From NCBI RefSeq assembly GCF_000218545.1, contig NC_015671.1, positions 806,001-870,000 of the forward strand: a stretch of DNA of 64,000 bases, given 5' to 3'. This stretch comes from Cellulomonas gilvus ATCC 13127 (GTDB lineage: Bacteria; Actinomycetota; Actinomycetes; Actinomycetales; Cellulomonadaceae). The position numbers and the translations under genes were made by a program. Shown here piece after piece: positions 18,082 to 36,604 of this stretch (its first letter is position 1; the number at the start of each line of letters is the position of its first letter). Below the pieces are notes generated by a model. It worked only from the letters and a program-made list of their open reading frames with translations, was not told where the DNA came from and made no database searches.

Positions 18082-20019
18082 GTGGGCGCAAGGACGTGCA
18101 GCACGTGCGGGGCGGAGCTCGAGGTCGGTGCGATGTTCTGCGCCGAGTGCGGCGCGCGTGCCTCGCAGACCGGACCCGTGCCGCCGCCCGGTGCAATCTC
18201 CTCGTCGCCCCCGCTGCCGGGCACCACATCGGCGCCGCTCCCCGCGGGCGTCGCGCCCCAGCCGCCCGCGCCGTTCGTCCCCGCGGTGCCCGCGCACCTC
18301 GCGTCCGCTCCGCCGTCCGCACCGTCCGTGCCGTCCGTGCCGGGCGCCGACGACCAGGCCGCCCCGGCGGTCGCGCACGAGCCCGACGGCCCGGGGCTGG
18401 CACCGCCGCCCCCGCCCTCGCCGCCCGCCGTGCACGCCGACGTCCCGCCCGTGTTCGCGGCACCCGTGCGGCCGGCCGACACGTTCCCGGTGGTGCCGGG
18501 CCGCGTCGCCCCGGTCGGGACGCGCGTCGGTGCGTTCGCGATCGACGTGGTCGCCCTCGCGCTCGTCGCGGGCCTGGGCGTGCTGATCGCCTCCCTCACC
18601 GTGGGCACGCCCGCGCCCGGTGACGTGTCGGCGACCGCGGGGATCGTCTCGTTCCTGCCTGCCGCGCTCGGCGGGCTCGGTGGGCTCGCGCTGTGGATCA
18701 GCGAGGCGCGTACGGGCGCGACGCTCGGCGGGTGGCTGCTGGGCATCCGCACGGTGTCCGTGCGCACGGGCCGCCCCGCGGGCTTCCTGGCGATCTTCCT
18801 GCGGCAGCTGATCGTGGGGCTCGGCGCCGTCGCGTGCTACGTCGGCCAGTGGGTCGTCGTCGCCTCGGGCGCGTTCGACAAGACGCCCGCGCAGCGCGGC
18901 TGGCACGACCGCGTCGCGGGCACGCTCGTGCTGCGGGCGGGGGCCACGGGCGTCGCACGCAGCGCGGACCCGGACGCCGCGTGGGACCACGCCGTCGCGC
19001 GCGCCGTGGGCGGCGCCGTGCCGCCCGCCCCGCTGCCGCCCGCTCCCGTCCCGCCCGCTCCCGTCCCGCCCGCTCCCGTTTCGCCCGCCCCGGTGCCGCC
19101 CGCCCCGGTGCCGCCCGCCCCGGTCCCGCCCGCGCCCGTGCCGCCCGCCCCGGCGCCGGTACCGCCCGCGCCGGCGCCCGCCGTCCCGGTCCCGCCCGCG
19201 CCCGGGACGCCCCTGGGTGCCGCACCCGGGAGCGCCGTCCCGCCGCCGCCCGCGCCGCCGGTGCCCGCCCTCGCGCCCGCGCCGCCCGTGCCCCCGGCAC
19301 CCGCCGCCGAGCCCCGGGCCCGCACCGGCGCTGTCGCCGACGCGCCGCCCTCGGAGCCGGTCGTGACCGCGCCCCTGCCTGCCGCACCCGTCATCAGCCT
19401 GGTGCCCCTGCCGCCCGGCGTCGGCACGGGCCGGCCCACGGGCCCCGCCGCACCCGACGCGCGACTCATCACCGGCTTCCCCGGCTCGGGTGGGGCGCCG
19501 ACGGGTGGTGCCCTCGCGGGTGCGGGTGACGTGCCCGCGCCGTCCGACGTCGTCGGGGAGCCGCGCCTCACCTCCGGACCCGTGACGCCGCCGGCGCCGC
19601 CCGTGCGCCGGGACCTCGTCGAGGACCTCGACGAGCTCGAGCTGACGCGCATGCGCGAGCCCGAGACGCTCGACGCCCAGCCGGGCGTGCGCGGGCTGCG
19701 GCTCGTGTTCGACACGGGCGAGCGCGTCGACGTCGTCGGTGAGGGTGTCGTCGGCCGGGCGCCGCAGGCGGCCCCCGGCATCGACCACGTCGTCGCGATC
19801 GACGACCCCGCGCGGTCGGTGTCCAAGGTGCACCTGGCGTTCGGTCCGACGGATCACCCCGACGAGCTGTGGGTCATCGACCGTGGCTCGACCAACGGCT
19901 CGGTGGTGGTGCGGCCCGACGGCAGCGCCGCGACGCTCCCTGCGGGTGCGCGCGCCACGGTCGGCCCGGGCTGGTCGGTGCGCTTCGGCGACCGCACGGT
20001 CGTCGTCGAACGCCGCTGA
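18082..20019 (+). CDS. Zinc-ribbon / RDD membrane / FHA domain protein (copy A, long proline linker)
   Basis: 645 residues from the GTG behind GAGGGAGGGG; the open frame extends upstream but without domain content. Order: a CxxC...CxxC zinc ribbon (CSTCGAELEVGAMFCAEC, residues 6-23), a Pro-rich stretch, an RDD-type membrane domain of about 140-285 with the conserved Arg and Asp in its first helix, a long PPAPV repeat region of about 310-480, and a C-terminal FHA domain of about 535-640. The FHA phosphothreonine-pocket motifs are intact: GRAP, SVSKVHLAF and DRGSTNGS. The same architecture recurs in copy B at 25,719. Likely a membrane adaptor that binds a phosphorylated partner; its role in secretion is inferred from context only. 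Confidence 0.85.
   Translation: MGARTCSTCGAELEVGAMFCAECGARASQTGPVPPPGAISSSPPLPGTTSAPLPAGVAPQPPAPFVPAVPAHLASAPPSAPSVPSVPGADDQAAPAVAHEPDGPGLAPPPPPSPPAVHADVPPVFAAPVRPADTFPVVPGRVAPVGTRVGAFAIDVVALALVAGLGVLIASLTVGTPAPGDVSATAGIVSFLPAALGGLGGLALWISEARTGATLGGWLLGIRTVSVRTGRPAGFLAIFLRQLIVGLGAVACYVGQWVVVASGAFDKTPAQRGWHDRVAGTLVLRAGATGVARSADPDAAWDHAVARAVGGAVPPAPLPPAPVPPAPVPPAPVSPAPVPPAPVPPAPVPPAPVPPAPAPVPPAPAPAVPVPPAPGTPLGAAPGSAVPPPPAPPVPALAPAPPVPPAPAAEPRARTGAVADAPPSEPVVTAPLPAAPVISLVPLPPGVGTGRPTGPAAPDARLITGFPGSGGAPTGGALAGAGDVPAPSDVVGEPRLTSGPVTPPAPPVRRDLVEDLDELELTRMREPETLDAQPGVRGLRLVFDTGERVDVVGEGVVGRAPQAAPGIDHVVAIDDPARSVSKVHLAFGPTDHPDELWVIDRGSTNGSVVVRPDGSAATLPAGARATVGPGWSVRFGDRTVVVERR
19021..19200 (+). repeat. 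PPAPV-coding tandem repeat
   Basis: About 12 imperfect units of roughly 15 bases of the type CCGCCCGCTCCCGTC encode a run of PPAPV/PPAPA pentapeptides linking the membrane and FHA domains of the protein starting at 18,082. It is a likely site of length variation by slippage. Confidence 0.75.
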
Positions 20020-20136
20020 CGCGCACGGTCGCGCCGGCAGACCGCCGCTCCGACGCGCGGGCAGGCCGCACGCTGCCCGCGACGTCGTCGTCCGTGCGCC
20101 CGTGCTGCGCGACGGGACCGGCGGCCCGGTGACGGG

Positions 20137-23100
20137 TCAGGTCGTGGGCGGGGTCCAGGCCATCTGCACCACCTGCACGCCGGCGTCGCGCGTGACGAGG
20201 CGAGCACGGCCCGGTACGGCGGGAGCGGGCCGGACGCCACCGACCAGCGCACCCTCGTCGGGGCTGCCGGACATGACCAGACCGGGTGCGGCGAGGTCCC
20301 GCAGGCCCTGCAGCACCGGGTCGAACATCGCGCGTGAGGCGCCACCCGTGCGTCGCGTCAGGACCAGGTGCAGGCCGACGTCGCCGGCCTGGGCGAGCAG
20401 CGGGACGAGTGCGGTCATGGGGTTGCCCGAGGACGTCGCGACCAGGTCGTAGTCGTCGACCAGGACGTAGACGTCGGCTCCCGACCACCACGAGCGGGCG
20501 CGCAGCTGGTCCGGTGTGACGTCCGGGCCGGGCATGCGTCCCCGCAGGTAGGTCGCCAGGTCGGCGAGCTCGGCCGTCGCCTGCTCCTGCGTCGTGAGGT
20601 AGCTGGTGAGGTACTCCTCGGGGATCTCGCCCAGCAGCGCGCGACGGAAGTCCACGGCGATGATCTGCGCCTGCTGCGGCGTGTGACGCCGCTGCACCTC
20701 GGCGGCCACCAGGCGCAGCAGCGCGGACTTGCCCGCGCCCGAGTCGCCGTAGGCGTACAGGTGGTTCTCCTCGGTGAGGTCGAGCACCACGGGTGCGAGC
20801 GCGGACTCGTCGATGCCCAGGAGCACGCCCGGGGCGTCGGGCACCCGCTCGCGCAGCGACGCGAGCGTGACCTCCTCGGGCAGCAGCCGCAGCTTGGGCG
20901 GCGGCGCACCGCGCCACGCCTGCGTCACGGCCTGCACCAGGTGCGCGACGCCGGCGCCGAGCGTGTCCGCCGAGCCGTCGCCGTCCACGCGGGGCAGCGC
21001 GGTCAGGACGTGGTGCTTGGTGACGGCCAGACCGCGGCCCGGGCGCTCGCGCGGGACGGCCGCGGCGACCTTGCGGTCGAACTCGGAGTCGGTCGGGTCG
21101 CCGAGCCGCATCTCCAGGCGCGTGCCGAACAGGTCCTTGATCTGCGTGCGGAAGTCCATCCACCGGCTCGCGGCGGCCATGAGGTGGATGCCGAACGTCA
21201 GACCGCGGCCCGCGAGGGCCTGCAGGCGGGGCTCGAGCTCGTCGAACTCCGCGCGCACCGTCGACCAGCCGTCGACGACGAGGAACACGTCCCCGTAGCC
21301 GTCGTCGACCCGGCCCTCGGCGCGCCGCGTGCGGTACGTCTCGATCGAGTCGATGCCGTGCGCGCGGAAGTACCGCTCACGCGCGTCGACGATGCCTTCG
21401 ACCTCGGCCACGACGCGGCGCACCACGTCGGGCTCGGCACGCGTCGCGACGCCCGCGACGTGCGGCAGGTCGACGAGCGGCGTGAACGTGCCACCGCCGA
21501 AGTCGAGCACGTAGAACTGGGTCTCGAGCGGCGTCCGCGTCAGCGCGAGGCCCGTGACCACCGACCGCAGCACGGTGGACTTGCCCGAGCGCGGCCCGCC
21601 CACCACGGCCAGGTGGCCGCCCGCACCCGCGAGCGACATGGTGAGGTGCTCGCGGCGCTGCTCGAGCGGCCGGTCGACGATGCCGAGCGGGAACGTGAGC
21701 GGGCCGGCGGCGCGCCAGCCGGGGGAGACCAGGCCGAGCGCGGGGTCCACCGCGAGGTCGGGCATGAGGGTGTCGAACGTCTCGGGCACCACGAGCGGCG
21801 GCAGCCACACCTGGTGCGCGGCGGGGCCCTGACCCTTCATGCGCTCGACCGCGAGGTCGAACGTCGCGCGCTTCTCGCCGTCGTCGACGGTCTCGGGCTC
21901 GTCGGGCTCGTCGCGCCCCGGGGTCAGCCCCAGGACCGGTGCCGCGGTGAACGACTCGAGGCGCGCCCGGCCGGTCGCCACGGCGGCAGGACCCGCCGTG
22001 GAACGGCGGCGCGCACGCGGCGGGCCGGAGACGTAGGACGCGCGGAACTGCACCATCGTCGTCGGGTCGGGCTTGAGGTACCCCACGCCGGGGATCGGCG
22101 GCAGCTCATAGGCGTCCGGCACGCCCAGCACGGTGCGGGACTCGGCGGCCGAGAACGTCCGCAGACCGATCCGGTAGGACAGGTGCGACTCGAGGCCGCG
22201 CAGGCGGCCCTCCTCGAGGCGCTGGCTGGACAGCAGCAGGTGCATCTGCAGCGAGCGGCCCAGCCGTCCGATCGCGACGAACAGGTCGACGAACTCGGGC
22301 TTGGCGGCCAGCAGCTCGGAGAACTCGTCGGCGACGATGAGCAGCGCCGGCAGCGGGGCGAGGTCGGGGCGGTCGGTGCGCCGCGCCTTCTCGTAGTCCG
22401 CCACGTTGGCGAAGTTGCCCGCCGCGCGCAGCAGCTCCTGGCGGCGCACCATCTCGCCCTGCAGCGCGTCCTGCATGCGGTCGACGAGCGTGAGCTCCTC
22501 GCCGAGGTTGGTGATGATCGCGGACACGTGGGGCATGTCGGCCATCCCCGCGAACGTCGCCCCGCCCTTGAAGTCGACGAGGACGAAGTTGAGGTCCTCG
22601 GACGAGTGCGTCAGCGCGAGCGCGAGCACGAGCGTGCGCAGCACCTCGGACTTGCCCGAGCCGGTCGCGCCGATGATGAGCCCGTGCGGGCCCATGCCCT
22701 GCTGCGCGGACTCCTTGATGTCCAGCGAGACCGGCTGACCCTGCGGGGTCAGGCCGATCGGGACGCGGAGGCGGTCGCGCGGCAGCCGCGGCTTCCAGGC
22801 CTGGGCCAGGTCGAGGTCCCGCACGTCGCCCAGCCCCAGCAGGTCGACGAGCTCGGAGGAGACCTGCCCCTCCTCGCGCTGCGGACCCGCGTCCACGAAC
22901 AGCGGCAGCAGGCGCCGCGCGGCAGCCTCGGCCTCGGGGATCGAGAGCTGGTCGCCACGCAGGCGGGTGGGCTCGAGGCCGACGCGCAGCACCTCGACGG
23001 GGACGCCGCCGTCGGGCAGCGCCGCACCCAGCAGGAAGCGCAGCACGTGCGGGTCCTCGAGGTCCTCCCAGTGCTCCGGAAGCTCGAGAACGGTGATGCC

Positions 23101-24105
23101 CAGCACCCCGTCGGGCGTGACGATCCCGTTGCCGACCGGGACGTGCCCGCCGTCGACGACGACGAGCACGTGCGGGGTGGGTGCGTTGAGCGCGGCGCGG
23201 CCGAAGCGCGGCCGGTCGGCCAGGCCCTCGGGCAGCAGCCCCTCGACGTCCGCGAGCGCGGTGCCGATCATGCGCGCCGGGCCGACCGCGTCGCGCTCGC
23301 GCGTCGAGTGCGCGTGCGGCAGCCACTTGACCCAGTCCCACGCGGGCAGCGCACGGTCGCTCGCGAGGACCGCGATCTGCAGCTGGTCGGGCGAGTGGAA
23401 CGCCGCGAGCTGCGCGACCATCGCACGGGCCAGGCCGCGCGCCTCCTGCTCGGTGCCCGCGACCTCGATGCGCGACGCGCTGCGCACGTCGACGGACAGC
23501 GGGATGCCCTGCTGCACGCGGTGCGTGACCAGGAACCGGTGCGCGGCCGACGCGGCCACCGGGTCCAGCTGCGCGAGCGGCGGCGTCTGCGGCGCCTCGA
23601 GCTGCAGCGCGAGCATCTGCGGACCCGTGCCGATGCGGGCACGGAGGAACTCGGGGTGGTCGGGCGTGCGCTCCCAGGCGCGTGACCGCTCCTCGACGAG
23701 CGCGGCGAGCGCACCCGGCTCGGGTGCGTACCAGTGCGCGGCACGGCGCTGCGCGCGCCCCGCCTGGCGCACCGTCCGCCGCAGGTCCGCCAGGTAGGCG
23801 AGGTACTCCCGGCGGGCGCCGATCACCGAGGCCTGGTGCTGTGCGCGCTGCCGCCAGCCGTTCACGACGACGAACCCGAGCGAGGCGACCAGGAACATGC
23901 CGCCCGCGACCATGCCCTTGCCGCCCGGCTGCGCGAGCGCGATGAACACGATCGACCCGACCGAGCCGAGCATCGGGACCATGTTCGACAGCACGCCGCT
24001 CATGCCGTCCGACGGCTGGAGCTCGGGCGGCGGCTGCATGACGACCTGACCGGTCGGGACCGGGGGCGGGCCGGCGGGCTCGCGGCGGTCGGCGGCGATC
24101 GACAT
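20137..24105 (-). CDS. eccC: Type VII secretion ATPase EccC (FtsK/SpoIIIE family, three ATPase domains)
   Basis: 1,322 residues, the motor and substrate-recognition subunit of ESX-type secretion. Two N-terminal transmembrane helices (about 42-59 and 66-83) are followed by three FtsK/SpoIIIE ATPase domains, each with a Walker A motif: GATGSGKS (Lys485), GGPRSGKS (Lys842) and GDSGAGKS (Lys1126). Walker B is VADEF in domain 1 but VVDGW in domain 2 and LVDDYD in domain 3, so the later domains look degenerate, as in known EccC proteins where the last domain binds the WXG100 substrate. Single-chain form, not split. The ATG follows GGAGGCCC at ideal spacing; any upstream extension would run antisense through eccD. 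Divergent from eccD with 142 bases between them. Confidence 0.95.
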   Translation of the reverse strand: MSIAADRREPAGPPPVPTGQVVMQPPPELQPSDGMSGVLSNMVPMLGSVGSIVFIALAQPGGKGMVAGGMFLVASLGFVVVNGWRQRAQHQASVIGARREYLAYLADLRRTVRQAGRAQRRAAHWYAPEPGALAALVEERSRAWERTPDHPEFLRARIGTGPQMLALQLEAPQTPPLAQLDPVAASAAHRFLVTHRVQQGIPLSVDVRSASRIEVAGTEQEARGLARAMVAQLAAFHSPDQLQIAVLASDRALPAWDWVKWLPHAHSTRERDAVGPARMIGTALADVEGLLPEGLADRPRFGRAALNAPTPHVLVVVDGGHVPVGNGIVTPDGVLGITVLELPEHWEDLEDPHVLRFLLGAALPDGGVPVEVLRVGLEPTRLRGDQLSIPEAEAAARRLLPLFVDAGPQREEGQVSSELVDLLGLGDVRDLDLAQAWKPRLPRDRLRVPIGLTPQGQPVSLDIKESAQQGMGPHGLIIGATGSGKSEVLRTLVLALALTHSSEDLNFVLVDFKGGATFAGMADMPHVSAIITNLGEELTLVDRMQDALQGEMVRRQELLRAAGNFANVADYEKARRTDRPDLAPLPALLIVADEFSELLAAKPEFVDLFVAIGRLGRSLQMHLLLSSQRLEEGRLRGLESHLSYRIGLRTFSAAESRTVLGVPDAYELPPIPGVGYLKPDPTTMVQFRASYVSGPPRARRRSTAGPAAVATGRARLESFTAAPVLGLTPGRDEPDEPETVDDGEKRATFDLAVERMKGQGPAAHQVWLPPLVVPETFDTLMPDLAVDPALGLVSPGWRAAGPLTFPLGIVDRPLEQRREHLTMSLAGAGGHLAVVGGPRSGKSTVLRSVVTGLALTRTPLETQFYVLDFGGGTFTPLVDLPHVAGVATRAEPDVVRRVVAEVEGIVDARERYFRAHGIDSIETYRTRRAEGRVDDGYGDVFLVVDGWSTVRAEFDELEPRLQALAGRGLTFGIHLMAAASRWMDFRTQIKDLFGTRLEMRLGDPTDSEFDRKVAAAVPRERPGRGLAVTKHHVLTALPRVDGDGSADTLGAGVAHLVQAVTQAWRGAPPPKLRLLPEEVTLASLRERVPDAPGVLLGIDESALAPVVLDLTEENHLYAYGDSGAGKSALLRLVAAEVQRRHTPQQAQIIAVDFRRALLGEIPEEYLTSYLTTQEQATAELADLATYLRGRMPGPDVTPDQLRARSWWSGADVYVLVDDYDLVATSSGNPMTALVPLLAQAGDVGLHLVLTRRTGGASRAMFDPVLQGLRDLAAPGLVMSGSPDEGALVGGVRPAPAVPGRARLVTRDAGVQVVQMAWTPPTT

Positions 24106-24247: not shown

Positions 24248-25663
24248 GTGACCACCACGGCCGCACCCCGCGTCCGGCACGCGCAGGTGCGCCTGGTCGT
24301 CGGCGTCGGTCCGGACCAGCGCCACGTGGCGCTGCGCGGTGACGTCGCGCTCGCCGACGCGCTGCGTGCGGCGCTCGTCCCGCTCGACGCACCGGGCACC
24401 GCTGTCCTCGACTCCGCGGGCCGACGCCTCGACCTCGCGCTGCCGGTGGGCGCCCAGCTCGACGACGGCGCCGCGGTGCACGTGGTGCGGCCCGCGCCCG
24501 CGCCGCGCGGTCGGCGGGACCCGGCGGCCGACGCCGAGGCGCTCGCCCGCCGTCCGCGGCCGCGTGCGGCGCTGCTCGCGCTCGCGGGCGCGCTGGGCCT
24601 CGTGCTGCTGACGCTCGCGCTGACGGGGGCGCCCGCGGTCGCGCTGGCCGGCTGGGACGCGGACCTCGCGCCCGTGCTGCCCGCCGCGCTCGTCGTGGCG
24701 CTCGTGGCCGCGTCGCTCGTCGTGGCCGGGACGGGGCGTCGGCGGGGCGGTGCCACGCCGACGGCCGTCGCCGCGGCCGCGACGTTCGCCGCGCCCGCAC
24801 TGGCCGCCGCAGCGGGTGCGTGGGCCGTGCTGCCCGACGACGCGGCGACCGTGCGCCTGGCCGGGACGGTCGCGCTCGTGGCCGCGACGACGGCCTCGGC
24901 CGTGCGCGCGGTGATCGCCCGTGCCGCACGCATCGGTGACGACGAGGCGCTCGTGGTCCTCGCCGCGCTCGTCGTGGTCGGGTCGACCACGACCGCGGCG
25001 CTCCTGCTGGAGCTGCCCGGGACCGCAGCCGCAGCGTTCCTGCTCGGCCTGACGCCCGTGGTGCTGCGCGTCGCGCCGCGGCTCGCGCTCGCGGTCCCCG
25101 ACGAGCAGCTGGTCGACGTCTCGCGCGTGTCCCGGACCGCCGACTCGGTGCGGCACCCGCGCCCGCGCGCGCTGGGTCGCGTGAGCGAGCGCCTGGTCGC
25201 CCGCACGGTCGCGGGCGCCGAGCGGCGCGTCACCACCGCGGTCGTGGTCGCCACGGGTCTCGCCGTGGCGCTCGTGCCCCTGGTCGTCGGCGCCCGCGAG
25301 CCGGGGACCATGGCCGGCATCGCCGCGATCGTGCTGGTCGCGGCGGTCGTCGTCGCGTTCGTGCTGGTCCCGCGCGTGGCGCGCGACCCGGCGACGCGGT
25401 GGCTCCCCAGGCTCGCGGCCGGGCTCGTGCTCGTGGCGGCGTCGGTCGCGGTGCCCGCGGGTGCGCGGGTCGCTGTCGCGGCCGGTGCGATCCTGCTGGC
25501 GCTGGTCGTCACCGCGGTCGGTGCGGCGCTCGGGCGCGGCTGGCACTCCGTGGTCGCGTCGCGCGCGGCGGATGCGTGCGAGGGGCTCGCGGTCGTGCTC
25601 GCGCTGCCCGCGGCGGTCGTCGCCGCCGACCTGGTCGAGTCGATCCGGCAGGCCGTCTCGTGA
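24248..25663 (+). CDS. eccD: EccD-like type VII secretion channel protein (first copy)
   Basis: 471 residues. An N-terminal ubiquitin-like (YukD-type) cytosolic domain of about 1-85 is followed by about eleven hydrophobic helices to the C-terminus, the EccD architecture. EccD forms the membrane channel of ESX systems and is present as a dimer in each protomer of the known structures. The GTG start follows GGGGAGGGCGAGAC. Sequence is clearly diverged from the second EccD at 31,870, although both share a motif like PRLALAVPDEQLV between helices. It is transcribed away from eccC and followed 55 bases later by a zinc-ribbon/RDD/FHA gene. Confidence 0.88.
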   Translation: MTTTAAPRVRHAQVRLVVGVGPDQRHVALRGDVALADALRAALVPLDAPGTAVLDSAGRRLDLALPVGAQLDDGAAVHVVRPAPAPRGRRDPAADAEALARRPRPRAALLALAGALGLVLLTLALTGAPAVALAGWDADLAPVLPAALVVALVAASLVVAGTGRRRGGATPTAVAAAATFAAPALAAAAGAWAVLPDDAATVRLAGTVALVAATTASAVRAVIARAARIGDDEALVVLAALVVVGSTTTAALLLELPGTAAAAFLLGLTPVVLRVAPRLALAVPDEQLVDVSRVSRTADSVRHPRPRALGRVSERLVARTVAGAERRVTTAVVVATGLAVALVPLVVGAREPGTMAGIAAIVLVAAVVVAFVLVPRVARDPATRWLPRLAAGLVLVAASVAVPAGARVAVAAGAILLALVVTAVGAALGRGWHSVVASRAADACEGLAVVLALPAAVVAADLVESIRQAVS

Positions 25664-26940: not shown

Positions 26941-26975
26941 CCACCGGGCCGCGGCGGTCCGCCGCGGCCCGGTGG
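26941..26975. terminator. 17-bp perfect palindrome, bidirectional terminator
   Basis: CCACCGGGCCGCGGCGG and its exact reverse complement are separated by a single T. It lies between the convergent ends of the FHA gene (stop 26,855) and the WXG100 gene (stop 26,980), so it can stop transcription from both sides. Most of it is inside the 749-bp direct repeat. Confidence 0.65.
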
Positions 26976-26979
26976 GTGG

Positions 26980-27264
26980 TCACCAGCGTGCGGCGTTGGC
27001 GCGCTCGGTGGCCTGGTAGTCCTCGTTGGACGTGGTGACCGCCTGGCCGATCTGGGCCAGCAGGGCCTTCATGTCGGTGATGGCGGTGGTCCACTTGGCG
27101 CGGGCTGCCTCGTAGGAGGTCGAGGCCTCACCGGACCAGTTCGCGCGCAGGGGCGCCAGCGACTGGTCCATGTCGTTGAGGCGGCTCTCGATGTTGCCGG
27201 CGCCGGGCTGGATGTCAGCGGCGGCCGTGGCCAGTCCGCCGAAGTTGACCTTCAGGTCGCTCAT
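26980..27264 (-). CDS. WXG100 (ESAT-6-like) secreted protein, 94 residues, copy 1
   Basis: Helical hairpin protein with the WXG turn at W43-S-G45 and a C-terminal type VII export motif YxxxE at Y83-E87 (YQATE). Proteins of this family are exported as dimers through ESX systems and carry partner proteins. The ATG follows AGAAGGGGAA. Thirteen bases downstream of the 103-residue WXG100 gene on the same strand, so the two likely form a co-expressed pair. Differs from copy 2 only at residue 20 (Pro here, Ser there). Confidence 0.93.
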   Translation of the reverse strand: MSDLKVNFGGLATAAADIQPGAGNIESRLNDMDQSLAPLRANWSGEASTSYEAARAKWTTAITDMKALLAQIGQAVTTSNEDYQATERANAARW

Positions 27265-27277
27265 CGGGTTCCCCTTC

Positions 27278-27589: not shown

Positions 27590-27763
27590 GACACCTCCCC
27601 CGTGCCCGACCCGTGCGGGCCGATGCCTCACCCGCCCCGGACGGGACGCGCCAGTCCCGGCGAAACGCCGCGAAACCGACGGAACCATAACGCGACGCCG
27701 GGGGACCGCGTGGGGTGGTGCCGTCGGCTGTGGATGCGCGTGCCGGGCGTCGGGCCCGGATGG

Positions 27764-29149: not shown

Positions 29150-30492
29150 TCTTCCCCTGGGTGCGGTCGCGGGTCAGGCGGTGCTGCGGATGACGGGTGG
29201 GTCGACGCGGTCGCGGGCGTCGCGCTGCGACGTCGGACCAGGACGACGGCGGTGGCGGCGAGGGCTGCCGTGAGCAGGCCGCCCGCGCCCAGCGCGGCGA
29301 CCGGGACGCCTGCCCCGTCATCGGCCGAGGGTGCGGGTGCCGCGGTCGCGGATGCGCTCGGCACCGCCGGGGCGGGCTCCGTCGCCGGGGCCGCCGGGGT
29401 CGGGGTGGGCTCGGGCGAGGCGCTCGCACCCGGCGCGGGCGGCGGGTCCTGCACCTCGTCGTACGTGGGCACGCTCAGCTCGCGACGGTCCAGCAGCGGG
29501 TTCTCGTCGGGGTAGCGCGTCGGGTCCTTCTCGAGCATGTGCCGCACGTTGACCCGGCCGTGCCCGTACTCCGGGTCGCGGAACAGCTCGTGGTCCTCGC
29601 TCTCGGTGTTGCGGACCAGCGTCTGCAGGATCTGGTCGGCCGTCGCGTCGGGGTAGGCCGACCACACGAGCGCGAGGGCCGCCGCCGTGTAGGCCGTGGC
29701 GCTCGACGAGCCGTTCTTCTCCTCGGCGCCCCGCAGGTCCTCGGTGATGTGCCGGATGCCCTCGCCGGGCGCGACGACGTCGGCGCCGGGAGGCGCACCG
29801 TCCCACAGCTTCCCGTCGGGTCCCACGGAGTTCACGGCGACCACGCCGTTGTGCGCCGCGGGGTAGCCTCGACCGCCGTCGGGCTCGACCGCGGCGACGA
29901 CGATCACGCCGGCGTGCAGCGCACGTGCGATCGCGTCGCCGTCGCCGGGGGACTCGGTGCTGAGCGAGATCGAGATGATGTCCGCCCCGTCGGCCACGGC
30001 CTGGTCGATCGCGGCCGCGTACACGGTCCCCCCGTACGCCGTCGTCTCGGGGTAGCACTTCCCCTCGGGCGCGCCCGCGGGCGCGGTGAGCGCCGAGTAG
30101 AAGGAGACGGACGCATCGGGCGCCACGCCACGGATGCCGACTCCCTCGCCGGTGCCGATCACGAGCGAGGTCATCGTCGTGCCGTGCGCGGCGTCCGAGG
30201 AGTCCGTCACGGCGGGCATCGCCGTGCCCAGCGGCTCGTCGGCGCAGAACGACGGCTCGTGCACGGTGAGGTCGGTCCCGACGAGGTCGCCGACGTCCGT
30301 CTGGATCGCGGTGTCGATCACCGCGACCCGGACACCCTCGCCCGTGGCCTCGCGGTGCAGACGCTCCATACCGGTCTTCGTGAAGTACCACAGGCCGTCG
30401 TCGGTGTCCGTGGCGGCCTGCGCCGGCGCCGCGAGCGACGCACCCAGCACCGACGCGAGCGCGCCGACGAGAAGGGTGCGAGGTCGCGTCAT
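29146..30492 (-). CDS. mycP: Mycosin-like subtilase (S8 family), first copy, atypical active site
   Basis: 448 residues with a signal peptide (about 1-27, ending AQAA), a subtilisin fold and a C-terminal transmembrane anchor (about 408-430) after a Pro/Ala-rich stalk: the mycosin layout. Catalytic Asp60 (VAVIDTAIQ), His103 (AAHGTTMT) and Ser263 (SSSATAYTAA) are present. The oxyanion-hole Asn is not: where subtilases have AAGN, this protein has AAVEPDGG around residues 200-207. The second mycosin at 34,608 keeps SAGN. Activity may therefore be reduced or altered. Both ends overlap neighbours by four bases (ATGA, GTGA). Confidence 0.88.
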   Translation of the reverse strand: MTRPRTLLVGALASVLGASLAAPAQAATDTDDGLWYFTKTGMERLHREATGEGVRVAVIDTAIQTDVGDLVGTDLTVHEPSFCADEPLGTAMPAVTDSSDAAHGTTMTSLVIGTGEGVGIRGVAPDASVSFYSALTAPAGAPEGKCYPETTAYGGTVYAAAIDQAVADGADIISISLSTESPGDGDAIARALHAGVIVVAAVEPDGGRGYPAAHNGVVAVNSVGPDGKLWDGAPPGADVVAPGEGIRHITEDLRGAEEKNGSSSATAYTAAALALVWSAYPDATADQILQTLVRNTESEDHELFRDPEYGHGRVNVRHMLEKDPTRYPDENPLLDRRELSVPTYDEVQDPPPAPGASASPEPTPTPAAPATEPAPAVPSASATAAPAPSADDGAGVPVAALGAGGLLTAALAATAVVLVRRRSATPATASTHPSSAAPPDPRPHPGEE

Positions 30493-30881
30493 GCCATGCC
30501 CATGCCGCCCGGCACCCGGTGGCCGGGGGCGTACGGCCCGTACATCGGCAGGGGGTCGAGGCGCGCGGCGAGCCGGGCGAACAGCGCCTGGATGTCCTCG
30601 TCGGTCGCCTTGGTGTTCGCGACCATCTTGTCCAGCTCGTCGCGCATGGTCTCCACGCGCGTCCGCAGCTCGGCGAGCTTCTCGGAGAACACCGCGAGCT
30701 GGCTCGCGTAGGTCTGCGCGAAGTACGTGGGGGAGGACGCCCTCGACCAGGTGTCGGCCGTCTGGTTGCTCTCGACCCGCGCGGCGCGCGTGCGCACGCT
30801 CTCGAGCTGGTCGAACAGCTCGAGCAGCGCGTTCAGCTGCTGCTTGACGAGGTCGGCATCGATGCTGACGCCGCTGCTCAT
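30489..30881 (-). CDS. WXG100-like helical protein without the glycine, 130 residues
   Basis: Two amphipathic helices joined at TADTWSRASS, where the WXG turn would be W45-S-R47, so the Trp is kept and the Gly is lost. A coiled helix from about residue 55 to 108 is followed by a flexible Pro/Gly/Met-rich tail (residues 109-130). No YxxxD/E motif. The ATG follows a GGGGGAG ribosome binding site. Its stop overlaps the mycosin start as ATGA. Probably a diverged WXG100-superfamily substrate or chaperone specific to this mycosin and PPE-like gene. Confidence 0.75.
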   Translation of the reverse strand: MSSGVSIDADLVKQQLNALLELFDQLESVRTRAARVESNQTADTWSRASSPTYFAQTYASQLAVFSEKLAELRTRVETMRDELDKMVANTKATDEDIQALFARLAARLDPLPMYGPYAPGHRVPGGMGMA

Positions 30882-30953: not shown

Positions 30954-30984
30954 ACCGGGCCGCGGCGGTTCGCCGCGGCCCGGT
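30954..30984 (-). terminator. 14-bp hairpin after WXG100 pair copy 2
   Basis: ACCGGGCCGCGGCG and its exact reverse complement with a GTT loop, seven bases past the stop of the WXG100 gene at 30,991. It is the counterpart of the longer palindrome at 26,941. It lies between this pair and the downstream WXG-like/mycosin genes on the same strand, so it may reduce read-through and keep the small proteins in excess. Confidence 0.55.
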
Positions 30985-30990
30985 GGGTGG

Positions 30991-31275
30991 TCACCAGCGT
31001 GCGGCGTTGGCGCGCTCGGTGGCCTGGTAGTCCTCGTTGGACGTGGTGACCGCCTGGCCGATCTGGGCCAGCAGGGCCTTCATGTCGGTGATGGCGGTGG
31101 TCCACTTGGCGCGGGCTGCCTCGTAGGAGGTCGAGGCCTCACCGGACCAGTTCGCGCGCAGGGGCGCCAGGGACTGGTCCATGTCGTTGAGGCGGCTCTC
31201 GATGTTGCCGGCGCCGGACTGGATGTCAGCGGCGGCCGTGGCCAGTCCGCCGAAGTTGACCTTCAGGTCGCTCAT
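30991..31275 (-). CDS. WXG100 (ESAT-6-like) secreted protein, 94 residues, copy 2
   Basis: Same as the protein at 26,980-27,264 except Ser20 instead of Pro20. WXG turn W43-S-G45, export motif YQATE at residues 83-87, same AGAAGGGGAA ribosome binding site. The gene heads towards the WXG-like, mycosin and PPE-like genes on the minus strand, with the hairpin at 30,954 in between. Confidence 0.93.
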   Translation of the reverse strand: MSDLKVNFGGLATAAADIQSGAGNIESRLNDMDQSLAPLRANWSGEASTSYEAARAKWTTAITDMKALLAQIGQAVTTSNEDYQATERANAARW

Positions 31276-31288
31276 CGGGTTCCCCTTC

Positions 31289-31600
31289 TCAGCCCAGACG
31301 CCCGGACAGTCGCGTGAACGCGGACTGCTGGGTGTCGTCGGACGCGGTGTAGGTCGACTGCGACTGCAGCAGGTTGGACTCGAACTCGTTGAGCGCCGAG
31401 ACGATCTTGTTCGCGTCCTCACGCCAGCGGACCATCAGCTGGTTGAACGCGACCGCGCCCTGGCCCTGCCAGTGCGACCCGATCCCGGCCAGCTTGCCCT
31501 CGAGTGCGGACAGCTCGCGCTGCAGCTCGCCGCGCGTGCGTGCGACGACGTCGGCTCCCTGCTTGATCGCACCATCTGCTGCGGAGACCTCTGTTGCCAT
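31289..31600 (-). CDS. WXG100 (CFP-10/ESAT-6-like) secreted protein, 103 residues, copy 2
   Basis: Protein identical to that at 27,278-27,589: WXG turn W44-Q-G46 and YTASD export motif at residues 84-88. Starts at the ATG behind GGGGGAGG. First gene of the minus-strand unit and divergent from the second EccD gene, with about 270 bases between start codons. Confidence 0.93.
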   Translation of the reverse strand: MATEVSAADGAIKQGADVVARTRGELQRELSALEGKLAGIGSHWQGQGAVAFNQLMVRWREDANKIVSALNEFESNLLQSQSTYTASDDTQQSAFTRLSGRLG

Positions 31601-31815
31601 GACACCTCCCCCGTGCCCGACCCGTGCGGGCCGATGCCTCACCCGCCCCGGACGGGACGCGCCAGTCCCGGCGAAACGCCGCGAAACCGACGGAACCATA
31701 ACCGACGGGGTGGGGCTTCGTCCTGCCGGGCAACCGTCCTGGGCCCCATCCGGGGCCACTCTCCCCCGATCGGCGGACGCCGCAGGTCGGGACGCACCGC
31801 CCGATCGGGCGTGAC

Positions 31816-31869: not shown

Positions 31870-33255
31870 GTGACCGACGACCAGCCGACGAGCCAGCCGA
31901 GGACGCCGATGACCGATCCGAGCACGCCGACCCCGGTCGGCACCCTGCTGCGGATCTCCGTGTCGAGCGCCGACCGGCGGATCGACCTGGGCGCACCGGG
32001 CAACGTCGCGGTCGTCGAGATCGTCCCGGGCCTCGCCCGCGCGCTGGGGGTGCTCGACGCGGGGTCGGTCTACGGCGGGTACCACCTGGTCACCGCGGCG
32101 GGCGTGCCGCTCGACCCGGCGCGCAGCCTCCTGGCCTCGGGTGTCGAGGACGGCGAGGTGCTGACGCTCGAGGTCGGTGCCGCGCGCCCGGAGCCGCGTG
32201 TGTACGACGACGTCGTCGAGGCCGTCGCGGACGCGGTCGAGACCCGGTTCCGCCCCTGGACGCCGCACGACAGCGCGCTGGGTGCGGCGTGGGGAGCGGC
32301 CGCGCTGCTCGCCGCGACGGGTCTGCTGCTGCTCGGCGCGGCGTCCGACGAGCCGCTGCCGCCCGTGGTCGCGGCCGTCGGTGCGTTGCTCGCGGTGGTG
32401 GCCGGTGCGGTCGTCGCCCGGGTCGGGCGCGATGCGGCCGCGGCACGCGTGCTGGTCCTGTCCGGCGGTCTGCTGGGCGCGGTCGCGGGGCTCACCCTCG
32501 GTGAGACCGCACCGTCCTGGGGGTGGCCCGCGGCTGCGGCCGGCGCGGGGCTCGCGGTGGCCGCGGTGCTCGCCGCCGCGGCGCTGCCGGACGCGCGCGA
32601 GGTCGCGGTGGGCCCGGGGGCGCTGGGTCTCGCGCTCGGCGTCGTGGGGGCGACGGTCGAGCTCGCGCCGGCCGAACCCGCGCACGTGCTCGCGGTGCTC
32701 GTCGCCGTGGTGCTGACCGCGAGCATCGGGGTTCCGTGGCTCGCGCTGGCGACCACGCCGCTGCGTGTGGTCTCGCCGCGCAGCGACGCGGAGATCCTGC
32801 TCGACCCCGTCGCGGTCGACGCCGACCGCGTGCAGCGCCAGCTGGACACGGGCTACCGCGTCCAGCTCTCGCTGCGGGTGTGCGTCGGGCTGCTGACGAT
32901 CGTCGCGACACCGACGCTCGTCGCGTCCGGCGTCCCCGCGACGCTCCTGGTCGTCGTGGGCTGGGTGGGCGTGCTGCTCGCGACCCGGCAGTCGTACGCG
33001 CGTGCCGACGTCTTCGTCGTGGTCGCGCTCGGGGTCGCGGGGCTGGCGCTGACGCTCGTCGTCGCCGCGCTGGTCCACCCCACCTGGCGGACCGGGCTCG
33101 TCGTCGCGGCAGGCGTCGCGGTGGCGGCGCTCGTCGCGCTGGGGCTCGTCGCGCCGCGTCGCCGCGTGGGCCTGGCGCGCGCGGGTGACGTGCTCGAGAT
33201 GACCGGCCTCGCCGTCCTGCTGCCGCTCGGCGTGGCCGCAGCCGGGCTGGTCTGA
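31870..33255 (+). CDS. eccD: EccD-like type VII secretion channel protein (second copy)
   Basis: 461 residues: a disordered Thr/Pro-rich start of about 25 residues, a ubiquitin-like domain of about 28-110, then about eleven hydrophobic helices. Same architecture as the EccD at 24,248 but strongly diverged. GTG start; an ATG at 31,909 is a possible alternative. It leads a tight unit with eccB (15-base gap), a mycosin and a PP2C phosphatase. Whether the two EccD proteins act as a heterodimer or belong to two alternative machines cannot be decided from sequence. Confidence 0.88.
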   Translation: MTDDQPTSQPRTPMTDPSTPTPVGTLLRISVSSADRRIDLGAPGNVAVVEIVPGLARALGVLDAGSVYGGYHLVTAAGVPLDPARSLLASGVEDGEVLTLEVGAARPEPRVYDDVVEAVADAVETRFRPWTPHDSALGAAWGAAALLAATGLLLLGAASDEPLPPVVAAVGALLAVVAGAVVARVGRDAAAARVLVLSGGLLGAVAGLTLGETAPSWGWPAAAAGAGLAVAAVLAAAALPDAREVAVGPGALGLALGVVGATVELAPAEPAHVLAVLVAVVLTASIGVPWLALATTPLRVVSPRSDAEILLDPVAVDADRVQRQLDTGYRVQLSLRVCVGLLTIVATPTLVASGVPATLLVVVGWVGVLLATRQSYARADVFVVVALGVAGLALTLVVAALVHPTWRTGLVVAAGVAVAALVALGLVAPRRRVGLARAGDVLEMTGLAVLLPLGVAAAGLV

Positions 33256-33270
33256 CGCGGCCCGCGCTCG

Positions 33271-34611
33271 ATGGCGACCAAGCGTGACCTCGTCGAGGCG
33301 CAGGCGTTCTCCCGCCGCCGCCTGCTGACCGCGTTCGTCAGCGGGGCCCCGGGCGGCCAGGAGCTCGAGCCCACCAAGCCGATGCGCGGCGTGGTCGCGG
33401 GCGTGGTGCTGAGCGTGCTCGTCGTGATCGGCTCGGTGGGCTGGGGGCTGCTGCAGCCCAAGCCGAACGACTGGCAGGACGACCGGCTGGTCGTCGTCAA
33501 GGACTCCGGAGCGCGGTACGTGTCACAGGGCGGCACGCTGTACCCGGTGCTCAACACGACGAGCGCGCGCCTGGCGATCGAGGCGGGCTCGTTCGACGTC
33601 ATCGTCGTCTCGCCCGACGTCATCGCGGACGCGCCGCGCGGGCGCACGGTCGGCATCGAGGGTGCGCCCGACTCGCCGCCCGCGCAGAGCGCGCTCGTGG
33701 GCACGGGCTGGACGGCGTGCGTCGCCGAGGACGGGATCGCCACGCACGTCGGCGTCCCTCTGGAGACCGAGGCGGCCCAGGCCGTGGTCGTCCAGGTCGC
33801 GGGCGAGACGTACGTGGTCGCGGACGGCGTGCGGCACCACGTGCCCGCCACGGACGCGCCCGCGGTGCTGCGGTCGCTGCAGCTCGACACCGCGACCCCG
33901 GTGGAGGCGAGGGCGGCCTGGCTCAACCTGTTCCCCGCGGGCAGCGACCTGGCCCCGCTGGAGGTCGAGGGCGCGGGCAGCCCAGCTCCGCCGGGTGCGG
34001 GGCTGGACGGGCTCGAGGTCGGGACGGTCGTGCGCGTCGGCGCCGTCGGCGTGACCAGTCGGACGTTCGTGGTGCTGGAGGACGGCGCGCTCGCGAGCCT
34101 GAGCGAGTTCGCCGGGGCCCTGTACGCGCTCGGCTCCGGCGCGCTGGGAGCCCAGGTCGAGGTCGCGCCAGCGGACATCCGCGGGGCCGCGTCCGCGGAC
34201 CCGCTCGGCGCCGACGACTGGCCGCAGGAGCTGGTCGAGCCGATGCCGGCCGAGCGTGCGCCGTGCGCGGTGCTGAGCACGGGGACGGCGCCCGGCGTGT
34301 CGCTGGTCTCGGCCGAGCCGCCCGCGGCCGCGGGCGTGGACGTGGTGCCAGGAGGCGGGGCGGTCTTCGTCGCACGCACGCAGGAGGGTGCGGCGGGTGC
34401 CTACGGGCTGCTCGACGAGACCGGCCGACGGTTCGGGCTGCCGGGCGCGACGTCCGACACGCTGCTGCGGCTCGGCTACACCGAGGACGACGTGGTCAGC
34501 GTCCCGCCCGCGTGGGCCGAGCTGTTCGCGCCGGGGCCGGAGCTGACACCCGAGGCAGCCTTCCCGGCCGAGGTGGCGGCGTCGGCGACCCCGACCGCCG
34601 GGACCCCGTGA
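33271..34611 (+). CDS. eccB: Type VII secretion protein EccB
   Basis: 446 residues. A short cytosolic N-terminus with MATKRDLVEAQAFSRRRL, typical of EccB, one transmembrane helix of about residues 40-60, then a large extracytoplasmic domain with the repeated-fold features of the family (for example WTACVAEDG and, later, PCAVLS, offering a cysteine pair). EccB caps the ESX membrane complex on the outer side and contacts the mycosin. The only EccB in the window, so it must serve either EccD. Stop overlaps the mycosin start as GTGA. Confidence 0.93.
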   Translation: MATKRDLVEAQAFSRRRLLTAFVSGAPGGQELEPTKPMRGVVAGVVLSVLVVIGSVGWGLLQPKPNDWQDDRLVVVKDSGARYVSQGGTLYPVLNTTSARLAIEAGSFDVIVVSPDVIADAPRGRTVGIEGAPDSPPAQSALVGTGWTACVAEDGIATHVGVPLETEAAQAVVVQVAGETYVVADGVRHHVPATDAPAVLRSLQLDTATPVEARAAWLNLFPAGSDLAPLEVEGAGSPAPPGAGLDGLEVGTVVRVGAVGVTSRTFVVLEDGALASLSEFAGALYALGSGALGAQVEVAPADIRGAASADPLGADDWPQELVEPMPAERAPCAVLSTGTAPGVSLVSAEPPAAAGVDVVPGGGAVFVARTQEGAAGAYGLLDETGRRFGLPGATSDTLLRLGYTEDDVVSVPPAWAELFAPGPELTPEAAFPAEVAASATPTAGTP

Positions 34612-35867
34612 GCGCCCGCGGGCGCCGCCGGGCCCCGCTGGCGCTGCTCGTGGCGGGTGGGCTGCTGGGCGGTGCCGTGCTGACGGGCGTGCCGGCCGGG
34701 CCGGCGGTCGCGGCGAGCCCGTGCCTGGAGCAGCCCGCGACGCCCATCCGGGACCGCGCGCCCGCGGAGAGGAGCCTGTCCGCGCAACGTGCCTGGCAGA
34801 CCGCGACGGGGGTGGGCGTCCTGGTCGCGGTCGTCGACTCGGGCGTCGACACGCGCAACCCGCACCTGACGCGCGCGGTGCGCCCGGGCACGGACCTGGT
34901 GGGCGGCGCGGGTGGTGCACCCGGGACCACCGACGTGTGGGGGCACGGGACCGCGCTGGCGGGCATCATCGCGGCCCGCAAGATCGAGGGCTCGGGCCTC
35001 GTGGGGCTCGCGAAGCAGGCCGACATCCTGCCCGTGCGCGTGTTCGTCGCCGACGACGCGCAGGCGGCGGATGCGGGCACGGGACCGTCCGCGCAGCGCA
35101 TCGCCGAGGGGATCCGCTGGGCGGCCGGGCACGGAGCGCAGATCATCAACGTCTCGCAGTCCACCAACGTGGACACGCCCGCGCTGCGCGACGCCGTGCG
35201 CGCCGCGACGGCAGCCGGAGCGCTGGTCGTGGCGAGCGCGGGCAACCGCGACACGGCCGAGAACAAGGAGGACCACGTCCGCTACCCGGCCGCGTACCCC
35301 GAGGTGCTCGGCGTCGCGGCCGTCGACGCGGACCTGCAGCCCACCACCGCCTCGATCCACGGCCCGCAGGTCGACGTGGCCGCGCCGGGCGCGTCGGTGC
35401 TCGCACCGAGGCCCGGCGGCGGCGACTGCGTGCTCGGGGACACGGCGCCCTCGTCGAGCTATGCGACCGCGTACGCGAGCGCGGCGGCGGCGCTGCTCGC
35501 GGAGCGCTTCCCGGACGAGACGCCGGCGCAGTGGAAGCACCGCCTCGAGGTCACCGCGGCCCGCGCGGGCGCGGACGTCCGGACCGACGAGACCGGCTGG
35601 GGCGTGATCCGGCCCGACGAGGCGCTCGCGTTCGTCGACGACGGCTCCGCGGTGGGGCCGACCAGCCCGGCGTTCCCCGAGGCCCCGCGCGCGACACCGA
35701 CCCCGGCGCCGATCGTCGTCGCGCACGAGGCCGACCCGCTCGCACCGGTGCGCGCCCAGGCGGTCTGGTGGGCGCTCGCGGGAGCGGCCGTGATCGCGTT
35801 CGGCGCGTTGGCGTGGCGGCTGGTCACGGCGGGGGCCGGGAGGTCCGCCCGGCGGGGACCGGGATGA
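34608..35867 (+). CDS. mycP: Mycosin (membrane-anchored subtilisin-like protease), second copy
   Basis: 419 residues with signal peptide (about 1-36), subtilase domain and C-terminal transmembrane helix (about 388-408). The full active site is present: Asp77 (VAVVDSGVD), His113 (WGHGTALAG), oxyanion Asn213 (ASAGNRD) and Ser284 (SSSYATAYA). Cys39 and Cys274 could form the disulfide seen in mycosins. Mycosins stabilise the ESX membrane complex and cleave some substrates. Start GTG overlaps the eccB stop; stop overlaps the PP2C start as ATGA. Confidence 0.93.
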   Translation: MSARGRRRAPLALLVAGGLLGGAVLTGVPAGPAVAASPCLEQPATPIRDRAPAERSLSAQRAWQTATGVGVLVAVVDSGVDTRNPHLTRAVRPGTDLVGGAGGAPGTTDVWGHGTALAGIIAARKIEGSGLVGLAKQADILPVRVFVADDAQAADAGTGPSAQRIAEGIRWAAGHGAQIINVSQSTNVDTPALRDAVRAATAAGALVVASAGNRDTAENKEDHVRYPAAYPEVLGVAAVDADLQPTTASIHGPQVDVAAPGASVLAPRPGGGDCVLGDTAPSSSYATAYASAAAALLAERFPDETPAQWKHRLEVTAARAGADVRTDETGWGVIRPDEALAFVDDGSAVGPTSPAFPEAPRATPTPAPIVVAHEADPLAPVRAQAVWWALAGAAVIAFGALAWRLVTAGAGRSARRGPG

Positions 35868-36604
35868 GCGCGCGCGTGCCACGGCTGCGCTGGGGCGCCG
35901 CGACCTCGCCCGGCGGACGCGCGGAGAACGAGGACGCGCTGCTGGCCGACCGCGACGTGTTCGTGGTCGCGGACGGCATGGGCGGGCACGACGCGGGTGA
36001 GGTCGCGAGCGCGGCCGCGGTCGCGACGCTGCGACCGCTGGCGGGGACCGCTCCCGGGCCGGACCGCGTCCGTGCGGCTGTCGTCGCGGCGCACGAGGCG
36101 GTGCGGGCCGTCCCGTCCGAGTCGTCGCGACGCCCGGGGACGACGTTGACCGGAGTGGTCGCGTGCGTGCACGAGGGTGTGCCGTGCTGGGTGGTGCTCA
36201 ACGTCGGGGACTCGCGGACGTACCGCATGGCGGGAGCCGTGCTCGAGCAGGTCACGGTGGACCACTCGGAGGTCGCCGAGCTCGTCGCCGGCGGCCTGCT
36301 GCCACCCGACGACGCGGCGCACCACCCGTGGCGGCACGTGGTCACGCGCGCGCTCGGGGGCGGGGCCACCACGGTCGAGCCGGACCTGTTCGTGATGGCG
36401 ATCAGCCCGGGCGACCGCATGCTCGCCTGCACCGACGGCCTGACCGACACGTTGCCCGACGCGCGCATCGAGGCCGAGCTCAAGGCGGCGCACGACCCGC
36501 AGGCCGCGGCCGACCGCCTGGTCGCCGCGGCGGTGGCCGCGGGTGCGGGGGACAACGTGACGGCGGTCGTGGTCGACGCGCTGCCACGGGCACGCGTGCG
36601 CTGA
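35864..36604 (+). CDS. PPM/PP2C-family serine/threonine protein phosphatase
   Basis: 246 residues, a complete PP2C domain without a membrane helix. Metal-binding and catalytic motifs: RAENEDALL, VADGMGGHDAGE, VLNVGDSRTYR, CTDGLTDTLPD and GDNVTAVVV. It removes phosphate from serine or threonine residues and is translationally coupled to the mycosin. With two FHA proteins in the same locus it points to control by phosphorylation, but no Ser/Thr kinase gene lies in the window, so the kinase must be elsewhere. Confidence 0.93.
   Translation: MSARVPRLRWGAATSPGGRAENEDALLADRDVFVVADGMGGHDAGEVASAAAVATLRPLAGTAPGPDRVRAAVVAAHEAVRAVPSESSRRPGTTLTGVVACVHEGVPCWVVLNVGDSRTYRMAGAVLEQVTVDHSEVAELVAGGLLPPDDAAHHPWRHVVTRALGGGATTVEPDLFVMAISPGDRMLACTDGLTDTLPDARIEAELKAAHDPQAAADRLVAAAVAAGAGDNVTAVVVDALPRARVR

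Follow-up and report, generated by a model that had tools for sequence, protein, structure and literature searches.

Among the closest described relatives of the system analyzed here are the mycobacterial ESX machines, which belong to type a of the type VII secretion systems (T7SSa). In ESX-3, each protomer contains two EccD3 chains, one bent and one extended, that differ in the linker following the Ubl domain (PMC6986878), and for ESX-5, an EccB:C:D:E:MycP stoichiometry of 6:6:12:6:3, with an inner and an outer EccD, is given (PMC8131196). A 64,000-nucleotide stretch of the genome of Cellulomonas gilvus ATCC 13127 (contig NC_015671.1, positions 806,001 to 870,000; hereafter, the window) contains a single T7SSa/ESX locus of 15 genes at 18.08-36.60 kb, between a polyprenyl-synthase gene and an alpha-amylase gene. 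This locus shares with ESX-3 and ESX-5 EccB, EccC, EccD (Ubl domain and 11 transmembrane (TM) segments), a mycosin-type subtilase (MycP) and a WXG100 pair but differs in having two EccD genes (EccDa and EccDb) instead of one and in lacking EccE; furthermore, EccA was not detected among the 15 locus proteins scanned, the genome-wide searches not extending to this family. The locus probably encodes one EccE-less T7SSa machine of a distinct subtype in which EccDa (inner) and EccDb (outer) would form a heterodimer.

Of the components that define T7SSa, the EccC motor, EccB, EccD (PF19053) and a WXG100 pair are present in the locus, and the two putative mycosins are subtilases that score under the curated mycosin cut-off. 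The EccE of the ESX-1/2/3/5 type was not detected in the genome, and the two EccD depart from the single EccD per cluster of ESX-4. ESX-4 and ESX-4-like loci of non-mycobacterial actinomycetes similarly combine EccB, EccC, EccD, MycP and a WXG pair without EccA; however, in the part of PMC4791881 drawn upon here, EccD is named singly, and Micrococcales are not among the carrier orders, which include Propionibacteriales and Kineosporiales. Some ESX-4 variants lack EccE (Garrett 2024, PMC11217815). The same work describes T7SSc-j and, in the sections concerned, does not subdivide T7SSa. Of these types, T7SSe has a phosphatase and a stand-alone FHA protein in common with the window locus, but in T7SSd and T7SSe, as outlined there, the FHA domain is on the ATPase, a kinase is present, and other membrane parts replace EccB and EccD (PMC11217815). 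In the window, there is no kinase in the cluster, and no FHA match was obtained on EccC at E 1e-3. A literature search covering titles and the beginnings of abstracts among the papers listed, with subscription papers and bioRxiv outside its scope, found no account of ESX loci with two EccD genes. The locus apparently represents a branch of type VII (ESX) machines not described before.

Inventory of the locus and its genome

Profile searches of the entire genome (3.53 Mb, one contig) detected one EccB, one full-length EccC (2421 bits) and two EccD, both within the window, and no match to the EccE family PF11203 at E 1e-3. Another match to the EccC profile (72.6 bits) covers model positions 474-706 only and presumably represents FtsK. 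Seven Ser/Thr kinase matches are all located outside the window. The EccC and EccB families match ESX-5 and ESX-3 chains in the PDB, with the strongest EccC-family match to 4nh0, a Thermomonospora EccC. Every gene named in the original prediction, which was derived from the sequence alone, was confirmed within 18.08-36.60 kb, and the genome-wide check that it proposed agrees with it: neither EccE nor a second EccB or full EccC was found, and no kinase maps to the window. A second ESX locus, an EccE encoded elsewhere and a fusion of two systems are rejected by these searches, and the locus looks like a single ESX (T7SSa) machine with one EccC, one EccB, two EccD and two mycosins. EccE-like Pfam matches in 9 of 60 genomes of the genus were taken as unrelated given that EccB is absent in eight of these and is 2.6 Mb away on the contig in the ninth (G048).

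Phylogeny and distribution of the two-EccD loci

In a tree of 64 EccC sequences, none of them mycobacterial, all 38 EccDa-bearing loci are found on one side of a single branch with maximal support by the Shimodaira-Hasegawa-like approximate likelihood ratio test (SH-aLRT 100), compared to a mean of 20.5 changes needed with shuffled labels; EccDb is also in view in 33 of these 38 loci. Two rows of family f26 (L102 and L104) were labelled as having neither EccDa nor EccE in this analysis, though EccE is encoded in the adjoining pieces L101 and L103. The EccC of the window is on its own branch relative to the sampled one-EccD rows, mycobacteria being absent from the sample. When one Bacillota EssC and six EccC from EccB-less loci were added, all 15 EccDa rows still formed one group, and the EccDa-bearing EccC would constitute a clade if the EssC outgroup, which has a very long branch, is correct.

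In the EccD tree, EccDa (26 rows), EccDb (27) and the EccD of one-EccD loci (21) form three separate groups. As judged from these groupings, EccDa and EccDb are shown to be old paralogues inherited together since the subtype arose; the tree is unrooted, with fast EccDa branches, and the duplication is not placed relative to the one-EccD systems. The original prediction considered either a distinct ESX subtype or two fused systems sharing one motor. The former stands, with one branch of the EccC tree and a gene set that is conserved in carriers. Fusion is disfavored because the EccDa and EccDb groups travel together across genera; in addition, 31 of the 32 EccB-positive genomes of the genus encode EccDa, and EccDa lacks the hinge of the outer copy.

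Within the genus, EccB was detected in 32 of 81 genomes (including a marginal 22-bit match in G042) and EccDa likewise in 32; the two are found together in 31 genomes, with EccDa only in G075 (67% complete) and EccB only in G042. The locus is therefore patchy within the genus, but EccB and EccDa co-occur. In the fetched loci, which span at most 24 kb so that in-view counts of accessories are lower bounds, EccDa is mostly encoded near EccC, EccDb-EccB-MycPb are consecutive, and the accessory genes vary. Loci from seven named families have both EccD in view; these loci come from Cellulomonas, Phycicoccus, Knoellia, Nostocoides, Leifsonia, Microbacterium, Demequina, Nocardioides, Aeromicrobium, Actinomyces oris, Flaviflexus and an uncultured Propionibacterium. 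In Gulosibacter and in one Propionibacteriaceae bin, EccDa alone is in view. Wherever a locus shows EccC, EccB and EccDa, EccDb is present as well. The comparison of gene order across relatives proposed in the original prediction thus shows a gene set conserved in its carriers across genera, and neither a second ESX locus that could supply EccE, EccB or EccC nor a failure of the gene set to persist in relatives was observed. The simplest loci are those of Nocardioides: of the 18 named loci, 16 reach EccB, and 15 of these consist of EccC (in the opposite orientation), EccDa, EsxB, EsxA, EccDb, EccB and MycPb alone, with two additional genes in L115. This seven-gene set is probably the core of the subtype.

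EccDa and EccE were never found together. Among the 150 loci fetched, 104 encode EccC, EccB and EccD, and merging of five near-duplicate pairs leaves 99 non-redundant complete loci, of which 57 contain EccDa without EccE, 28 EccE without EccDa and 14 neither (Fisher p 1.5e-14, with shared ancestry ignored). For a whole-genome test, 70 genomes were hand-picked from the 146 EccB-positive ones among 394; eight of these belong to family f11 (mycobacteria-like), from which no loci were taken, and the remaining 62 come from other families. EccDa (at least 198 bits) is encoded in 23 of the 62 genomes, where EccE matches are either absent or score at most 23.8 bits and lie far from the locus (G393, G467 and G092). 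In the 39 genomes without EccDa, EccE scores above 50 bits in 17 and not in 22. Hence EccE-less systems without EccDa are common, and the loss of EccE is not explained by EccDa alone. An EccE match is present in 7 of the 8 genomes of family f11.

Complementary conservation in EccDa and EccDb

Structural work on ESX-5 assigns different contacts to the two EccD positions. The N-terminus of EccB is accommodated in a pocket that TM helices 8, 10 and 11 of the neighboring protomer's inner EccD provide and, according to the legend of Extended Data Fig. 6, is buttressed by the linker helix of the outer EccD (residues 119-130) and by the loop 307-315 of the inner EccD (PMC8131196); elsewhere, the TM10-11 loop of the pore-proximal EccD is described as hooked by the EccB N-terminus (PMC8232910). 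In EccD3, the linker E110-A115 is reported to be highly conserved, with strong loss of function upon changes to positive charge, and the charge-swap effects are interpreted by the authors via the bent copy; D114 is also stated to tolerate all substitutions (PMC11370616, a preprint).

The corresponding hinge in EccDb of the window, Y99-D-D-V-V-E-A105, aligns with V109-A115 of EccD3. This hinge is found in 0 of 74 EccDa compared to 122 of 123 EccDb and one-EccD proteins pooled, counts that include near-duplicate loci; the accompanying alignment has 74 rows. The exception is L090, one of the one-EccD loci without EccE in view (L090, L093-L097, L099, L100, L106, L108 and, in Actinomadura, L154-L157); these resemble the window locus in the absence of EccE and, in some cases, in having a second mycosin but differ in having a single EccD that, apart from L090, retains an intact hinge. 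A looser search recovered two of the 74 EccDa open reading frames (L125 and L126), and these matches were discarded as both precede the domain by more than 1,300 residues, within long frames that arise from read-through. The window locus itself has the traits by which the proposed two-EccD subtype is recognized, i.e., a hinge absent in EccDa and present in EccDb and an EccC within the EccDa group.

Conservation was ranked within each protein across 56 matched loci with both EccD, four near-duplicates and EccD pieces that were too short having been left out. The hinge and the TM6-7 loop had been named in the papers before conservation was computed, in a test that was not planned beforehand. The hinge ranks at the 99.8th percentile in EccDb and the 96th in the EccD of one-EccD loci and has no counterpart in EccDa. 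The TM6-7 loop shows the opposite trend, ranking at the 96th-99.8th percentile in EccDa, depending on the limits chosen, compared to the 52nd-62nd in EccDb and the 69th-77th in one-EccD proteins, with EccDa above EccDb in 200 of 200 bootstraps over loci. The TM10-11 loop is at the 98th percentile in EccDa, the 51st in EccDb and the 64th in one-EccD proteins. The Ubl domain ranks high in EccDb (98th) and one-EccD proteins (99th) and low in EccDa (37th), and the YukD match is found only in EccDb. Thus, EccDb retains an element of the outer copy and EccDa two elements of the inner copy, and we therefore infer an EccDa(inner)/EccDb(outer) heterodimer, for which this complementary conservation provides a strong lead.

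In such a machine, the two EccD positions would be filled by two gene products next to one EccB and one EccC. EccDb would take the outer, bent place, with its linker helix meeting the EccB N-terminus and the EccC stalk, and EccDa the inner, pore-proximal, extended place, where its TM6-7 and TM10-11 loops would hold the EccB N-terminus. The absence of EccE would be paralleled in EccDa by loss of the linker, the part through which the extended EccD of ESX-3 contacts EccE. The predicted exports are EsxA/EsxB and an EspB-like protein; MycPa would serve the substrate cassette as its protease and MycPb would be the mycosin of the core machine, with the FHA and PP2C proteins as likely lineage-specific regulators. 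The broader proposition seems slightly favored: in a T7SSa lineage present in at least seven actinomycete families, the asymmetric EccD homodimer would have been split into an obligate inner/outer heterodimer via complementary interface loss, without EccE.

Several observations weigh against these proposals. TM11 is conserved alike in all three groups (85th-86th percentile), and the TM1-2 and TM9-10 dimer faces are not clearly different between the paralogues. The segment limits were set by hand, the invariant EccDa columns had already been seen before the TM6-7 test, and the published work was consulted on the TM10-11 loop only once its peak of conservation had been noticed. EccDa evolves fast, so that its deep placement is uncertain, and the trees come from quick searches with SH-aLRT support only. 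Because the tree places the gain of EccDa in a single event, the failure of EccDa and EccE to co-occur amounts to one evolutionary contrast rather than 57. Of the 42 loci without EccDa, 14 also have no EccE, and two EccD are thus not a prerequisite for losing it. Finally, one genome of family f11 (G456) has no EccE match and two EccD matches 0.67 Mb apart.

Alternatively, EccDa might be located outside the barrel as an accessory membrane protein that replaces EccE at the periphery of the complex, a reading in line with the two not having been found together and with the weak conservation of the EccDa Ubl domain. This appears unlikely, considering that the best relatives of the EccDa family profile in the PDB are EccD5 and EccD3, over the Ubl and TM parts (EccD1-Ubl is also matched), that the protein has approximately 11 TM segments, that two of its most conserved parts are the loops that meet EccB in ESX-5, and that EccE can be missing where there is no EccDa. 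The presence of two EccD and two mycosins beside a single EccB and EccC could also be accounted for by two alternative machines, or states, served by one motor, with EccDa and EccDb each forming homodimers with the same EccB and EccC. This scenario is harder still to accept: an EccDa homodimer would be devoid of the outer-copy contacts, the hinge being missing in all 74 EccDa; EccDb is always found where EccC, EccB and EccDa are in view; and the presence of a second mycosin is not tied to that of a second EccD, given that 41 of 78 EccDa loci show MycPa and that second mycosins of some one-EccD loci group with it. A neutral, redundant duplication of EccD within an otherwise ordinary ESX-4-like system is very improbable because, even if recent duplication does occur at the locus (the esxBA repeat), both paralogues are found in loci of seven named families and conserve different parts.

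Gene features, accessory proteins and substrates

The genes are arranged in the order RDD1-FHA, EccC, EccDa, RDD2-FHA, EsxA2, EsxB2, EspB-like candidate, MycPa, WXG-like, EsxA1, EsxB1, EccDb, EccB, MycPb and PP2C (Table 1).

Table 1. Features of the two-EccD locus, in positions of the window
Feature	Position	Strand	Description
RDD1	18082..20019	+	zinc ribbon PF13240 25.9 bits (cut-off 25), RDD PF06271 58.4 bits, weak C-terminal FHA; accessory
EccC	20137..24105	-	motor ATPase, 1322 aa, EccCa and EccCb fused; TIGR03924 915.6 and TIGR03925 851.6 bits, both above cut-off
EccDa	24248..25663	+	second paralogue of EccD; Ubl of low conservation, ~11 TM segments, linker hinge missing; proposed as inner copy
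RDD2-FHA	25719..26855	+	zinc ribbon PF13240, RDD PF06271, FHA PF00498; phosphothreonine (pThr) motif at residue 288; accessory
Direct repeat with esxBA copy 2	26943..27690	none	partner copy ~30954-31700; outer edge approximate
EsxA copy 2 (WXG100)	26980..27264	-	PF06013 73.7 bits
EsxB copy 2 (WXG100)	27278..27589	-	PF06013 58.9 bits
Candidate substrate	27821..29143	-	WxG/MxG-type N-terminus, Pro/Gly-rich tail, acidic end
MycPa	29146..30492	-	second mycosin, cassette-linked; PF00082 88.4 bits; catalytic triad kept
WXG-like small protein	30489..30881	-	candidate partner of substrate; equivalent position in relatives
EsxA copy 1	30991..31275	-	PF06013 74.9 bits
EsxB copy 1	31289..31600	-	PF06013 58.9 bits
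EccDb	31909..33255	+	Ubl and YDDVVEA linker hinge; PF19053 87.1 bits, PF08817 59.2 bits; proposed outer copy
EccB	33271..34611	+	PF05108 230.8 bits; TIGR03919 214 bits (cut-off 154)
MycPb	34608..35867	+	core mycosin; PF00082 136.7 bits
PP2C-type phosphatase	35864..36604	+	accessory; PF13672 35.2 bits

The originally predicted RDD1 start at 18082 is preferred over the gene-caller start at 18133, as the former completes the zinc ribbon. EccDa scores 31.3 bits with PF19053 (cut-off 30). Neither EccD of the window reaches the cut-off of TIGR03920 (94.95 bits; 74.5 and 18.9 bits were obtained), and both mycosins remain under that of TIGR03921 (278.75 bits; MycPb 259.6, MycPa 141.3), so that automatic annotation relying on these curated NCBI cut-offs may miss all four genes.

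Both mycosins of the window are subtilases with the D-H-S triad intact. In the two-EccD-type loci, the window included, the triad is kept in 53 of 55 MycPa and 57 of 64 MycPb, so the possibility that MycPa is a pseudo-protease, hinted at by a loose motif search, is rejected by the alignment. MycPb adjoins EccB and is in view in 61 of 78 EccDa loci. MycPa accompanies the WXG-like and EspB-like genes, could be a substrate-cassette protease and was seen in none of the 18 named Nocardioides loci. In four Cellulomonas loci (L047, L051, L053 and L056), MycPa is present in two or three copies beside variable genes. MycPa forms its own group that is joined by the second mycosins of several one-EccD loci; accordingly, the doubled MycP, considered distinctive in the original prediction, is not diagnostic of the subtype.

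The two WXG100 pairs are present as predicted but, instead of being diverged, are near-identical: approximately 750 bp at ~26.94-27.69 kb and ~30.95-31.70 kb are ~99% identical (99% over 300 nt, with at least 47 of 50 nt identical per block from 26950 to ~27699), the EsxB copies are identical, and the EsxA copies differ by one residue. These direct repeats are located on both sides of the substrate/mycosin cassette. Doubled esxBA copies with identical matched protein regions are also found in L039 and L043 (side by side) and L075 (flanking a cassette). This arrangement perhaps reflects recent duplication or gene conversion, and perhaps a route for cassette exchange. The gene predicted to encode a PPE-like protein (27821..29143) is present, but its product has no Pfam match, nor any NCBIfam match; its resemblance to EspB is our assumption. 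Alignment with four relatives shows a WxG motif near the N-terminus in three, MxG in the window protein and the fourth, and a Gly-rich tail in all. The WXG-like small protein has no WXG100 match at E 1e-3.

The FHA domain of RDD1 scores 17.4 bits with PF00498, under the cut-off of 20.7, yet contains the pThr-binding motif. Because this motif is kept in 40 of 48 matched open reading frames, phosphothreonine binding by the FHA proteins is plausible. Among 78 EccDa loci, RDD/FHA proteins are visible in 34 and PP2C in 8, and none of the 18 named Nocardioides loci shows either. FHA and PP2C thus appear to be a patchy accessory layer, and no kinase is encoded in the window; the predicted gating of assembly or export by phosphorylation is a weakly supported notion that might apply to some lineages.

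Other variable components occur in relatives. In family f4, a 4-TM protein is encoded after EccDa (L069:6379-7149 and L070:13154-13870), at the position held by RDD-FHA in the genus of the window; the L069 protein has no Pfam match. In seven loci, a protein is encoded between EccDb and EccB (L069:15193-15999, L070:3712-4638, L075:13885-14571, L077:13603-14343, L085:13962-15056, L088:13400-14230 and L089:13548-14438). It begins with a segment resembling a signal peptide, which is followed by a low-complexity region, often rich in Pro and Thr, and by a C-terminal TM segment; several of these proteins end in an LPxTG/LAxTG-like sequence. Its location and two TM segments made it a candidate stand-in for EccE, which was dropped: none of the three proteins tested has a Pfam match, and the L075 protein, the one tested with NCBIfam, matches the LPXTG anchor model (20.9 bits). 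A Pro/Thr-rich protein anchored to the cell wall is the likelier interpretation, and such a part may belong to these machines. Families f24 and f26 contain a further locus (L189-L193, L195, L197 and L198) with EccC and a weakly matching EccD, where no convincing EccB, mycosin or EccE is in view; in the tree, six of the EccC fall outside the systems that have EccB, and these loci are possibly another T7SS variant. Among ten regions fetched around orphan EccD matches in one-EccD genomes, eight have EccC in view; none of the EccD is an EccDa by profile, and no convincing EccB is present. One of the orphan-EccD genomes (G117) shows a weak match to the EccDa profile (43.5 bits).

Altogether, these systems would add a subtype within T7SSa and indicate that T7SSa machines lacking EccE have been maintained in several families. 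Because a single EccD fills both structural roles in the solved ESX machines, the two roles cannot be told apart by genetics. If the heterodimer reading is correct, each EccD position has its own gene, and the two positions could be separately labelled, mutated and followed; the two-gene lineage would then reveal, by its evolution, which residues serve which position and make the lopsided build of the machine testable.

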